Part shown: positions 24,181 to 56,010 of the stretch, in pieces
Layout of the letters: every line of letters starts with the position of its first letter
How positions within the stretch are numbered: position 1 is the first letter of the stretch
DNA from: Microbacterium sp. LKL04
GTDB lineage: Bacteria > Actinomycetota > Actinomycetes > Actinomycetales > Microbacteriaceae
DNA: 64,000 nucleotides
Assembly (NCBI RefSeq): GCF_900102005.1
Contig: NZ_LT627736.1
Coordinates: forward strand, 1,178,001 to 1,242,000
Reading direction: 5' to 3'
Notes under the pieces: model-generated
Database searches by the model: none
What the model saw: the letters and a program-made list of their open reading frames with translations, nothing else
What the model was told of the DNA's origin: nothing
Position numbers and translations under genes: made by a program

Positions 24181-24186
24181 GCGCTC

Positions 24187-50886: not shown

Positions 50887-51669
50887 ATGGCAGCTTTCGC
50901 GGACTCCCCCTCCCCACACCGCGCGCGGCTGTGGTGGGAGATCGGAATCGTCCTCGCCCTCTCGCTGGGGCGTTCTGCGGTCTATTCGGTGCTCGCTCTC
51001 GTCGAAGCGCTCACACGCGCACCCCTCGGGGATCAGCAGACATCCCTGAACCCCGGGGCGGCGCCCTCGGCCGTATGGGACGTCATCGGCCGGTTCCTCG
51101 ACGCGTTCTTCGCGTTCGCGCCCGTCGCGCTGGCGATCTACCTGCTGTGGGAGCCCGCACGTTCGGGCTTCGCGAAGATCGGCCTGACTTTCGAACGATT
51201 CGGACGCAACCTGGGCGGCGGCGCACTCCTCGTGCTGATCATCGGCGTTCCCGGCCTGGGACTCTATGCGCTCGGCCGCGTTCTGGGCATCACCGTGCAG
51301 GTGGATGCCTCGCCGCTCGATTCGTCCTGGTGGACGATTCCGCTCCTCCTCCTCGCGGCACTCCGCGCGGGCCTTCTGGAGGAGGTCGTCATGGTGGGCT
51401 ACCTCTTCGACCGCCTGCGATTCCTCGGATGGAACACGTGGACGATCATCCTGTCGACGGCGGCGCTGCGCGGGGCGTATCACGCGTACCAGGGTTTCGG
51501 TCCGCTCATCGGGAACATGGCGATGGGCGTCGTCTTCGGATGGGTGTACTCCCGTTGGGGCCGGGTCATGCCGCTCGTCGTCGCCCACGTGCTCATCGAC
51601 ATCATCGCGTTTGTGGGCTACCCCCTCGCCGCCGCCTGGTGGCCCGGCGTGTTCGGCCCGCCGGCGTAA
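50887..51669 (+). CDS. CPBP-family intramembrane metalloprotease
   Basis: A 260-residue membrane protein with about six to seven segments and the CPBP (Abi/Rce1-like) motifs LLEEVVMVGYLFDRL, RGAYHAYQGFGPLIGNM and VVAHVLIDIIAF. The EE pair and both His are present, but the Arg of the usual EExxxR is Val; a Arg occurs eight residues later (FDRLR). The family cleaves or modifies membrane or prenylated peptides; some members give bacteriocin self-immunity. Substrate is unknown. It is divergent from peptide-transporter operon 2. Confidence 0.82.
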   Translation: MAAFADSPSPHRARLWWEIGIVLALSLGRSAVYSVLALVEALTRAPLGDQQTSLNPGAAPSAVWDVIGRFLDAFFAFAPVALAIYLLWEPARSGFAKIGLTFERFGRNLGGGALLVLIIGVPGLGLYALGRVLGITVQVDASPLDSSWWTIPLLLLAALRAGLLEEVVMVGYLFDRLRFLGWNTWTIILSTAALRGAYHAYQGFGPLIGNMAMGVVFGWVYSRWGRVMPLVVAHVLIDIIAFVGYPLAAAWWPGVFGPPA

Positions 51670-51702: not shown

Positions 51703-51775
51703 CCGCGAGACTGCACGTGCGCGCCGAGGCTGCGGCGCGGCGCAGCGGTCTCGTGCGCCGCGTGCTGTCTCGCGG
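51703..51775. repeat. Palindromic intergenic repeat, copy 1
   Basis: A 73-bp imperfect palindrome whose outer arms are CCGCGAGACTGCACG and the complement of CAGCACG-type sequence ending TCTCGCGG. It starts 33 bp after the CPBP stop. It is the most diverged copy in its centre. The rest of the 216-bp gap (51670-51885) is GC-rich without a recognisable gene. Confidence 0.7.
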
Positions 51776-51885
51776 TGGGAGCGGTGCGGGCGACGGTTCC
51801 TCCACCGCGTGCGCGCCGGGCGCGGAGTCCACCAGGCGGGGCGCGATGGTGCACGGGCTGGCGGCGCGCCGCGAACCTCGAGGCC

Positions 51886-52908
51886 ATGCCCTCGAACGCC
51901 GACCTCCTGCCCGTCGCCCGCCCCACTCCTGTCGCCTGCCCGGTACAGCTCGTGCGCGCGCAGGACGTGCCCCACGCCGCCCGCCTCGCGTCACGAGGCG
52001 AGCTCGTGTCGGTCGTGCGCGGGGTCTACTCGCCGACGGCGTCGTGGCGACCCCTCCTCCCGTGGGACCGCTATCTGGCCCGCATCCACGCCACGATCCT
52101 CACGCACCCCGGACTCGTCCTGAGCCACGAATCGGCCGCGGCGATCTGGGGGATGCCGGTGCTCGGCGACCCCGGCGTCGTCCACGCCCTGGGCGACCCG
52201 ACCCGCACTTCGCGCCTGCACGCCGGGCTCCGCCTGCACACGACGACGGGCGCGCGGGACGTCGTCGACCTCGGCGGATTCGCCGCCGTCGCGCCGTCAG
52301 ACTGCGCCGTCGACCTCGCGAGGGCTCGCCATGTGGTGGTGGGGCTCATCGCAGCCGATGCCGCGCTCCGTCTGGATCCGGCGGCATCCGTGGAATCGCT
52401 CGTCGAACAGAATGAGCAGCGACCGAGTTCGCGGGGGCGCCGCATCGCCCGGTGGCCCCTGCATCGCGCCAGGGCTGAGGCGGAGTCCACTCTCGAGTCC
52501 GCGAGTCGGGCGATCATCGAGTTGCTCGGCTACGAGGAACCGGAGCTGCAGACCGAGTGGAGCGGGCCAGCCGTGACCGATCGCACCGACTTCTGGTGGC
52601 CAGGATCGGGGATCGCCGGTGAGGCGGACGGCGACCTCAAGTACGACGGCCGGTTCGGTGATCCCGTGTCTCTGCTGCGCGCGCGCCGCGAGCGGGATCA
52701 TCGTCTCAGGTCGCGAGGCATTCGCTCGGTCGCGCACTGGGGCTGGTCGGATCTCGTCGACCCCGACGCGCTGGACGGCATCCTCCGTGGCGCAGGCCTC
52801 CCGCGCATCGCACTTCCCGACCCGTATCGCCTCGCGACCGCTCGAATCGCGCTCGCCCCGCGCCACTCCGTCCCGAGACTGCACGCCGGCGCCGAGACCG
52901 GGGTCTGA
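51886..52908 (+). CDS. AbiEi-like N-domain / PD-(D/E)XK-like C-domain hypothetical protein
   Basis: A 340-residue protein. Residues about 15-150 resemble the AbiEi-type winged-helix region (RLASRGELVSVVRGVYSP, LSHESAAAIWGMPVLG). The C-terminal part has IIELLGYEEPELQTEW, VTDRTDFWWPG and GEADGDLKYDGRF, matching the E..D.K pattern of DUF559/Vsr-like nucleases. Proteins of this layout are frequent, multi-copy hypotheticals in Microbacteriaceae. No partner toxin gene is adjacent. The last ~12 residues (PRLHAGAETGV and stop) are encoded by repeat copy 2. ATG 51886 is the start; GAACCT 7 nt upstream may be its -10. Confidence 0.65.
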   Translation: MPSNADLLPVARPTPVACPVQLVRAQDVPHAARLASRGELVSVVRGVYSPTASWRPLLPWDRYLARIHATILTHPGLVLSHESAAAIWGMPVLGDPGVVHALGDPTRTSRLHAGLRLHTTTGARDVVDLGGFAAVAPSDCAVDLARARHVVVGLIAADAALRLDPAASVESLVEQNEQRPSSRGRRIARWPLHRARAEAESTLESASRAIIELLGYEEPELQTEWSGPAVTDRTDFWWPGSGIAGEADGDLKYDGRFGDPVSLLRARRERDHRLRSRGIRSVAHWGWSDLVDPDALDGILRGAGLPRIALPDPYRLATARIALAPRHSVPRLHAGAETGV

Positions 52909-52943
52909 CCCCGCAGTCTCATGCGTCGCGTGCAGTCTCGCGG
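52872..52943. repeat. Palindromic intergenic repeat, copy 2
   Basis: A 72-bp copy: outer arms CCGAGACTGCACG and CGTGCAGTCTCGCGG, inner GCGCCGAGACCGGGGTCTGA. Its left half forms the 3' end and stop codon of the preceding gene. Confidence 0.85.
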
Positions 52944-53029
52944 AAGGTCGGGCGAGCGCGGCGGCTCGCCACCACGCCTCGAGCGGTCGCGGTGCGTGGT
53001 CCAGCCGCCCAGCCCGCGTGCCGCCCCCG

Positions 53030-53102
53030 CCGCGAGACTGCGCGCACGCGCCGAGACCGGTGTCTCAAACCCCAGTCTCGGCGACCACGTGCAGTCTCGC
53101 GG
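53030..53102. repeat. Palindromic intergenic repeat, copy 3
   Basis: A 73-bp copy with the best-preserved symmetry: CCGCGAGACTGC at the left end and GCAGTCTCGCGG at the right, with inner CGAGACCGGTGTCT / CCCCAGTCTCGG arms. It lies 62 bp past the gcvP stop and could end gcvP transcription. Between copies 2 and 3 (52944-53029) I see no gene. Confidence 0.88.
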
Positions 53103-53163: not shown

Positions 53164-56010
53164 TCAGGCGAAAGCTTCGATCGGGGGGCAGGCGCAGACG
53201 AGGTTGCGATCGCCGTAGGCGTTGTCGATGCGGCGGACGGGCGGCCAATACTTCGTGCGCACGATGCCCGGCACGGGGTACACGGCGGTCTCGCGTGGGT
53301 ACGGGTGCGCCCACTCGCTGGTGATGACGGATGCCGCGGAGTGCGGCGCGTTCACGAGCGGGTTGTCGTTCGCCGGCCACTCCCCCGCCGCGACGGCGTC
53401 GGCCTCGCCGCGGATCGCGATCATCGCCTCGACGAAGCGGTCGAGCTCGGCGAGGTCCTCGGACTCCGTCGGCTCCACCATGAGCGTCCCCGCGACCGGG
53501 AACGACATCGTCGGGGCGTGGAAGCCGTAGTCGATGAGCCGCTTCGCGACGTCGTCGACCGTGATGCCGGTGGCCTCCTTGAGCGGACGCAGGTCGAGGA
53601 TGCACTCGTGCGCGACGAGTCCGCCCTCCCCCGCGTATAGCACCGGGTAGTGGCCCTCGAGGCGGCGGGCGACGTAGTTCGCCGCGAGCACCGCCGCGGC
53701 GGTCGCCTGCCGGAGTCCGTCGGCGCCCATCATCCGCACATATGCCCACGAGATCGGCAGGATGGATGCCGAGCCGTAGGGCGCGGCCGAGACCGGTCCA
53801 CCGTCGAAGACGTGGCCACCGGCATGCTCGGCGCGCTGCGCCATCGGGTGCGACGGCAGGAACGGCGCGAGGTGCGCCTTCGCCGCGACGGGACCCACAC
53901 CGGGTCCGCCACCGCCGTGCGGGATCGCGAACGTCTTGTGCAGGTTCAGGTGCGACACGTCGCCGCCGAGGTCGCCGAAGCGGGCGAACCCGAGCAGGGC
54001 GTTGAGGTTCGCACCGTCGACGTACACCTGGCCGCCGGCCTCGTGCACCGCGCCGGTGATGTCCATGACGTCGTGCTCGTAGACGCCGTGCGTCGACGGG
54101 TACGTGATCATGAGGGCCGCGAGGCTGTCTGCGTGCGTCTCGACCTTGGCGCGCAGATCCGACAGGTCGACGTTGCCGGCCTCGTCGCACGCGACGACGA
54201 CGACCCGCATCCCGGCGAGGACGGCGGATGCCGCGTTGGTGCCATGCGCGGACGACGGGATGAGGCAGACGTCGCGGTGCAGGTCGCCCCGCGAGTGGTG
54301 GTAGCCGCGGATGGCGAGCAGGCCCGCGAGTTCGCCCTGCGAACCGGCATTCGGCTGCAGCGACACCGCGTCGTACCCGGTCACCTCGGCGAGCCACGCC
54401 TCGAGCTGCTCGATCATCACGAGGTACCCGGCGACGTCCTCGGCCGGCGCGAACGGGTGCACCCGCGCGAACTCGGGCCACGACACCGCCGCCATCTCGG
54501 TCGCCGCGTTGAGCTTCATCGTGCAGGACCCGAGCGGGATCATGCCGCGGTCGAGCGCATAGTCGCGGTCGGCGAGCTGCTTCAGGTACCGCATCATGGC
54601 GGTCTCGGAGCGGTGCGTGTTGAAGACGGGATGCGTCAGGTACTCGTCCGTGCGCCGGAGCGACTCGGGCAGGTGGGCGTTCCGGTCCCGCAGCGGCACG
54701 AACACCTTCGACGAGTCGACGCCGAAGACGGACGCCACAGCCTGCAGGTCCGCGACGGTCGTCGTCTCGTCGACCGAGATCCCGACCGAGTCGCTGTCGC
54801 GGAACCACAGCTGGTATCCGCGCCGCCGCGCGTCGGCGACCGTGTCCTCCGCGCGACCCGGCGTGCGGACCACGAGCGTGTCGAAGAACGCCTCGTGCAT
54901 CACGTCCGCCCCGGAGCCGATCAGCCAGTCGCGCAGGAGGGACGCCTTCGCGGTGGTCTCCTCGGCGATCCGGCGCAGGCCGTCGGGACCGTGATAGACG
55001 GCGTACATCGCGGCCATGACGGCCAGCAGCACCTGGGCGGTGCAGATGTTCGACGTCGCCTTCTCGCGACGGATGTGCTGTTCGCGGGTCTGCAGCGACA
55101 GGCGGTAGGCGGGCTGACCCGCGGCATCCATCGACACTCCGACCAGGCGTCCCGGCAGCTGACGCTCGAGACCGGCCCGGACGGCCATGTAGCCGGCGTG
55201 CGGTCCGCCGAAGCCCATCGGCACACCGAAGCGCTGCGTCGTCCCGACGGCGACGTCGGCGCCCATCGACCCCGGCGAGCGGAGAAGGGTGAGCGCGAGG
55301 AGGTCCGCCGCGACGACGACGAGGCCCCTCTGCGCCTGCACGGCGGCGATGACCTCGGACGGGTCCCAGACCCGCCCGGTCGCGCCGGGGTACTGCACGA
55401 AGGCACCGAACGCATCGGGGACCTCGCTGAAGTCGGTCTCGACGATCTCCACGCCGACGGCGGCGGCGCGGTGGTGCAGCAGCGCCTTCGTCTGCGGCAT
55501 CGCATCCGCGTCGACGAGGAACACGTCCGACGCGGACTTCGAGGCGCGTCGGGCCACCAGCATCCCCTCGACGACGGCCGTGGACTCGTCGAGCATCGAC
55601 GCGTTCGCCGTCGCGAGCCCGGTGAGGTCGGTCACCATCGTCTGGAAGTTGATGAGCGCCTCGAGGCGGCCCTGCGAGATCTCGGGCTGGTACGGCGTGT
55701 AGGCCGTGTACCAGGACGGGTTCTCCAGGACGTTCCGCTGGATGACCGACGGCGTCAGCGTGTCGTAGTAGCCGAGGCCGATCATCGCGCGCGCCGCACG
55801 GTTCTGCGATGCGAGGTCGCGGAGCTCGGCGAGGGCCTCGGCCTCGGTCGCCGCGGGCGGGATGATGCTCTCGCCCGCGGCGACGTGGATCGCGTCGGGG
55901 ACGGCCGTGTCGACGAGCGCCTCGACGGAATCGCGCCCGAGGACGCGGAGCATCTCGGCCTGTGCGGCCGCGTCCGTGCCGATGTGGCGGCTCTGGAAGG
56001 CCGAGCTCAC
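53164..56010 (-). CDS. gcvP: Glycine dehydrogenase (decarboxylating), P protein
   Basis: A 948-residue single-chain P protein of the glycine cleavage system, which decarboxylates glycine and passes the aminomethyl group to lipoyl-GcvH. Landmarks are [43 protein letters not shown], and in the second half [34 protein letters not shown] and the PLP lysine in [21 protein letters not shown] 56010 overlaps the gcvH stop as GTGA. It is last in the sdaA-gcvT-gcvH-gcvP operon. Confidence 0.96.

Follow-up and report, generated by a model that had tools for sequence, protein, structure and literature searches.

The closest described systems are those built upon repetitive extragenic palindromes (REPs). 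In PMC6006769 a REPtron is described as a gene with flanking palindromic repeats; there is one gene type for each repeat family, and several families may occur in one genome. The REP copies described there are intergenic, the gene does not move as a unit and the REP proteins are HUH enzymes, while TnpA-Y1 subclass 1.1 is given as the only one carried by the Actinobacteridae sampled. The locus analysed here lies in a 64-kb stretch of the genome of Microbacterium sp. LKL04 (the window, G000:C1:1178001-1242000, from a genome of 2,922,023 bases). It comprises a gene encoding a 340-amino acid protein, with a predicted AbiEi-like DNA-binding half and a predicted Vsr/EDxHD-like nuclease half, and three copies of a palindromic repeat around that gene. 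We think it likely that this is a REPtron-like unit, in which the protein would have the flanking palindrome as its cognate DNA target, and a single gene is accompanied by its own dispersed palindromes. As judged by sequence comparison the pairing of gene and repeat is well supported; the same comparisons reveal co-divergence of boxes with protein, stronger conservation of boxes than of spacers, an excess of copies at convergent gene ends with few at divergent promoters, and private copies whose flanking DNA matches that of another copy.

The three copies proposed in the original prediction are all present (Table 1), and no fourth full copy was found in the window, as had been stated. The 12-bp arm with at most one mismatch has seven matches in the window; six fall within the three copies, and the single extra match, at 24182, is a number often expected by chance alone. 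The arms and core described as common to the copies are so overall, except that copy 1 has an inner GCCGAGGC instead of GCCGAGAC, and a right arm CGTGCTGTCTCGCGG. Each copy is predicted to fold as a long hairpin, as anticipated, with z scores of -5.1 to -8.7 relative to dinucleotide shuffles on both strands; in each of the six folds (three copies, either strand) none of 200 shuffles equalled the real copy. The description as a palindrome of ~73 bp requires modification. The inverted repeats are strong, but the conserved part consists of four boxes and not the full stem.

There are 12 copies in the whole genome, three of which lie around the gene; among the 12 are two further pairs with starts 161 and 181 bp apart. 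A sequence-only model of this own type (R1), built from the same 12 copies, finds them at a best-strand E of 7.6e-16 or lower, and its best match beyond these loci in the genome has an E of only 1.2e-3. The alignment of the 12 copies comprises 73 columns, one base being missing at the edge of two rows. The four boxes, of ~9 bp each, have the sequence CGAGACTGC(ACG) and its inverse, occupying columns 4-12, 23-31, 43-51 and 62-70 with a spacing of 19 bp within each arm. Between copies in five genomes the identity is 0.89-0.97 for the boxes and 0.56-0.72 for the spacers, as if every copy were maintained as a four-site binding module. The copy at G000:C1:2649967-2650057 has an additional 19-bp box at one end, and thus five boxes.

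Flanking palindromes recur around homologues of the gene in other species. The comparison was based on 80 named homologue loci, mostly from Microbacterium, of which six are near-identical loci of the M. oleivorans group. Many of the homologues in relatives have one palindrome immediately upstream and another immediately downstream. Flanks of 500 bp were scored for the four boxes, using the 99th percentile of 538 control windows (a score of 25) as the cut-off, which is exceeded upstream in 62 of 75 loci (one of these, L193, is an artefact of a G-run) and downstream in 52 of 77. The upstream flank was also aligned to the downstream flank, a test that presumes no architecture, for 67 loci (the 80 less eight lacking full flanks and five near-duplicates). 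Against 536 mismatched pairs the flank-to-flank alignment passes the 99th percentile at 47 of the 67 loci, and against 660 control windows from the same loci it does so at 51. At five loci (L204, L205, L211, L213 and L243) the flank palindrome is a long, almost unbroken stem (TTCATTTCTGGCACATCTCCGG or CACATTTCTCCGG) and not a set of four boxes. The TTCATTTCTGGCACATCTCCGG long-stem type is found in both Microbacterium and Frigoribacterium.

The sequences of the boxes are gene-dependent, examples being GAGACTGCA, GAGAGTGCA, GAGAGAACA, GAGACTTCA, GAGACCTCA, GAGACACCG, CATAAACGC and GAGAAACC. Where both flanks reach a score of at least 28 (34 genes), the identity of the outer boxes is 0.75 within one gene and 0.46 between genes, which exceeds all of 10000 permutations; in 20 of these genes no other flank matches better than the gene's own partner. 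In 44 of the 80 loci gcvP is directly downstream of the homologue, so that the slot before gcvP is kept and the boxes have changed in place along with the gene. Box distance increases with protein distance (Mantel r = 0.39, equalled by 0 of 2000 permutations) among 31 of these 44 slot loci, hand-picked for scored palindromes; these include four M. oleivorans-group loci as well as L236, whose match length is not divisible by three. The gene appears to be inherited mostly vertically, in a mostly fixed slot.

Within the genus the repeat type follows the type of protein. The own genome and its relatives, 35 same-genus genomes, were searched with R1 and with models of two further types, R2 (CATAAACGC) and R3 (GAGAGAAC), match counts including both strands. 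The models are partly circular, as R1 derives from all 12 own copies, and R2 and R3 from flank copies of genomes later searched; most of the dispersed R2 and R3 copies were not part of model building. Of the 20 genomes that have a close gene (at least 110 bits, own genome included), 13 contain R1 at E <= 1e-5, as do 2 of the 15 that lack one (Fisher p = 0.005). R2 gives 17-118 two-strand matches in seven genomes (G006, G007, G009, G015, G019, G023 and G026), two in G022 and, at E <= 1e-4, none in the remaining 27 of 35. Proteins in those seven genomes score at least 270 bits against the R2-type seed, with the next best at 218, and 10 or more R2 matches occur in 7/7 genomes of this protein clade and 0/28 others. 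R3 gives 39 matches in G013 and 10 in G017, where both homologues have GAGAGAAC flanks, and thus reaches 10 matches in 2/2 clade genomes and 0/33 others. Elsewhere it has 1-8 matches in eight genomes, the strongest being two in G010 (E = 1.1e-12) and the rest having an E of 3e-7 or weaker. G015, G019 and G026 contain homologues of two clades, together with both R1-like and R2 matches. The claim that the protein acts on the repeat, or spreads with it, is supported by the 12 dispersed copies, by box types R1, R2 and R3 that follow their own protein clades, and by homologues elsewhere that are mostly flanked by palindromes of their own; the repeat is present genome-wide, and is less frequent in genomes lacking the gene. 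In G006 some R2 copies are arranged in ladders (G006:C10:287825-288236 and C12:234106-235030), for example three at 169-bp steps, which we take to resemble bacterial interspersed mosaic element (BIME) arrays.

A search of the genome for the close family of the 340-amino acid protein yielded that protein alone (one match at E <= 1). The structure model has a predicted local distance difference test (pLDDT) score of 92.1 and a predicted template modelling (pTM) score of 0.88. The predicted fold of the N-terminal part resembles AbiEi, a relation that offers a plausible mode of DNA binding. The nuclease-like half has a predicted fold similar to Vsr/EDxHD homing endonucleases, with invariant acidic residues. 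Copies 1 and 2 had been described as flanking the gene; copy 1 is indeed upstream, but copy 2 takes in the final 37 nt of the coding sequence (52872-52908), including the stop codon. The C-terminal tail of the protein, which is of low confidence in the model, is therefore encoded by the repeat.

The locus shares with the REP/REPIN repeats and their TnpA-REP (RAYT) proteins, as portrayed in PMC6006769, a flanked gene that does not move as a unit, dispersed intergenic copies and several families per genome. A further likeness is that repeat families are specific to gene types, with exceptions here in G017, G018 and G027. It differs in its enzyme, which is not of the Y1 HUH class but is modelled as AbiEi-like plus Vsr/EDxHD; a Pfam search of the 340-amino acid protein gave no match, HUH included, and was not extended to unrelated Y1 genes elsewhere in the genome. 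It differs also in its repeat, with four boxes at 19-bp spacing, and the GT[AG]G foot is present in 0 of the 24 arms of the 12 own-genome copies. Since both enzyme class and repeat design differ, the locus is not a member of the REP/RAYT systems, though it appears to work like one. With the EDxHD/Vsr-fold homing endonucleases such as I-Bth0305I it has in common the predicted catalytic fold with conserved acidic residues; it is distinguished from them in that no intron or intein is seen, and that the DNA partner is a short dispersed palindrome.

Table 1. Repeat copies, the gene and its neighbours, in coordinates of the window
Feature	Position	Strand	Comment
Repeat copy 1	51703..51775	.	Upstream of gene; boxes 51706-51714, 51725-51733, 51745-51753, 51764-51772
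Repeat copy 2	52872..52943	.	Overlaps 3' end of gene; boxes 52874-52882, 52893-52901, 52913-52921, 52932-52940
Repeat copy 3	53030..53102	.	Between gene and gcvP; boxes 53033-53041, 53052-53060, 53072-53080, 53091-53099
340-amino acid protein, predicted AbiEi-like DNA-binding half plus Vsr/EDxHD-like nuclease half	51886..52908	+	Gene call, structure model, fold matches
Segment within gene	51940..52476	+	
Segment within gene	52480..52812	+	
Upstream neighbour, CPBP/Rce1-like protease	50887..51669	+	Slot neighbour, not considered part of the system
Downstream neighbour, gcvP	53164..56010	-	Convergent; slot neighbour, not considered part of the system

Site sharing was compared across seven close genomes, the own genome and six named ones. 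Own dispersed sites are common to 7, 7, 7, 6, 5 and 3 of the seven; in three regions the copy is confined to a single genome: that at 103069, one in G062, and L281. The orthologous site of the private copy G000:C1:103069 is empty in G058, G060 and G061; the surrounding stretch is also absent in G059 and G063, and G062 matches the left side only. Together with 14-22 bp of left flank this copy aligns over 85-93 bp with the copy at 1910754 and with the G060 orthologue of the latter, at an identity of 88-89%. The G062-private copy has 113 columns at 86% in common with another G062 copy, both flanks included. In relatives its left and right flanks are found at separate locations, which prevents the reading of a clean empty site.

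A second palindrome family, met at 103069, brackets a gene in both G059 and G062, which was thus reached from the side of the repeat. The gene in G059 (L390, 1370-2182) and its counterpart in G062 (L391) are bracketed by palindromes with GCGGAGATC boxes, and the G059 protein matches DUF559 above the cut-off (E = 6.5e-7) and AbiEi_4 weakly, below threshold. The likeness of our locus to the DUF559 (PF04480)/REase_MTES_1575 group therefore lies in a DUF559 protein bracketed by its own palindromes in these two genomes; it differs in that the protein of the window lacks a Pfam match. Among 23 DUF559-type or distant AbiEi-like loci the flank-to-flank score is above 47.6, a threshold borrowed from the main homologue set, in 11 (L390, L391, L396, L398, L400, L403, L404, L406, L408, L159 and L163). 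The remaining 12, including the own-genome paralogues L399 and L409, score 23-42. The own-genome DUF559-type paralogue L406 (G000:C1:432545-433336) has palindromes on both sides, with GGATGCAATAG and CGACACGCC boxes and a flank alignment score of 130, and these are of a different family from that of the window. A DUF559 match at E <= 1e-15 is found in only 7 of 118 genomes drawn evenly across the class. We are evenly divided over whether there is a broad actinobacterial REP-like class of AbiEi-type proteins with Vsr/DUF559 domains, each owning, maintaining and spreading a private four-box palindrome, with a chemistry unrelated to HUH, fast diversification of specificity and several independent systems per genome. 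The odds are reduced because the pattern has so far been seen at three loci outside the Microbacteriaceae (L159, L163 and L400).

The positions of the copies bear upon an alternative that we consider unlikely, in which the protein is an AbiEi-type transcriptional regulator and the palindromes are its operators, the upstream copy being autoregulatory and the other sites forming a small regulon. According to PMC3985639 the AbiEi of Streptococcus agalactiae binds inverted repeats and so represses its own promoter. The upstream copy here lies ahead of the start codon, in the gap that follows the preceding gene, and boxes more conserved than spacers are as expected of binding sites. Of 91 copies in five genomes 37 are convergent, 42 tandem, 4 divergent and 8 called inside a gene, compared with 20 convergent, 89 tandem and 67 divergent among repeat-free gaps of at least 100 bp at the same loci. 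Convergent ends are favoured, with 37/83 intergenic copies against 20/176 gaps (Fisher p = 6e-9), and divergent gaps are avoided (4/83 against 67/176, p = 2e-9), the copies being treated as independent. These 91 are the best-scoring fetched copies, some neighbouring the gene itself, and the control gaps are not size-matched. Genes were called by a simple codon-usage caller, so the eight inside copies may be mis-called starts; two versions of the caller place the own-genome copies as 3 convergent, 5 tandem and 4 inside, or as 4, 6 and 2. While the tandem sites (42/83) are still compatible with operators, the avoidance of divergent gaps makes promoters unlikely as the main functional sites. The excess at convergent ends, the presence of a copy at the gene's 3' end as well, the flanks that private copies have in common with other copies, and the attached predicted nuclease fold with its invariant residues also argue against a regulator.

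A structural or housekeeping role is quite unlikely. The protein would then organise the chromosome, or the palindromes would be bidirectional terminators or insulators between convergent genes, for which the gene is kept. Sites do persist at orthologous positions with strongly conserved boxes, and in G034 15 of 25 copies lie between convergent genes, 12 of those 15 being within 46 bp of both stop codons. However, gene and repeats are patchy among the 35 same-genus genomes, the boxes are lineage-specific, the repeats range from one to about 59 copies per genome (118 two-strand matches), and more than one gene-repeat family can be present in a single genome.

It is very improbable that the repeats are leftovers of an unrelated transposon of the miniature inverted-repeat transposable element (MITE) kind, flanking the gene since its neighbourhood tolerates insertion. 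Short palindromes are dispersed between genes and private copies exist, but both-side flanking recurs across lineages with differing boxes, and box type follows protein type, neither of which is predicted by chance insertion. A check for target-site duplication yielded one empty site, with an imperfect duplication of ~37 bp, read by eye, in another repeat family. Equally improbable is a locus for type IV toxin-antitoxin function or for defence, in which the palindromes are incidental: PADLOC AbiEi profiles match the protein (best E = 5.6e-6) and the N-terminal part has the AbiEi-like predicted fold, but AbiEii (PF08843) has no match in the genome at E <= 0.01 (a control search found it in 4 of 14 known genomes), the gene caller places no second gene between the neighbours, and the protein differs from the AbiEi antitoxin of type IV AbiE in its extra nuclease-like domain and in repeats that are on both sides and dispersed.

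A number of observations weigh against a REPtron-like unit. A convincing shared flank repeat is missing in 16 of the 67 loci in the flank-to-flank alignment. When 40 homologue loci (some genes appearing twice, those of the genus at 100 bits or more included, weaker ones incompletely) were scored by type, the R2 flank score passed in 5 of 7 R2-clade genomes, failing in G015 and G023, and, of the 20 genomes that have a close gene, only 4 showed R1 flank matches. R1-like copies of the GAGACTGC type occur in G017, yet the only homologue there is flanked by GAGAGAAC. Without a close gene, G027 carries R1-like copies, and G018 a decayed-looking R1-like copy in a region homologous to the own site L097. 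The conservation of the boxes is partly ascertained, the copies having been found with box-weighted models. Close species have most copies in common, at orthologous sites, so present mobility may be low. The copy at 103069 sits inside the other palindrome family, and with the imperfect direct duplication its junction is not clean; the direction of copying is assumed in both private cases. Cleavage, transposition and nuclease-driven copying are steps that we infer for the 340-amino acid protein.

In the REPtron-like unit as we envisage it, all four boxes would be bound by the AbiEi-like half, probably in dimeric form on each of the two arms, and the Vsr/EDxHD-like half would use its putative active site to nick or cut the palindrome or DNA close to it. 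New copies of the palindrome, carrying some tens of bases of flanking sequence, could then arise at other intergenic sites by repair or template switching, processes that would also keep the boxes uniform.

No description of such a pairing of nuclease gene and palindrome was found in the open-access literature, and to our knowledge it is to HUH transposases that REP palindromes have been tied. If nucleases of the Vsr fold do run such an arrangement in Actinobacteria, then REP-like systems would have arisen more than once, and a testable function would become available for proteins now annotated as AbiEi antitoxin domain or DUF559. The numerous natural pairs of protein and box would make the DNA recognition code of the AbiEi-like domain directly testable.
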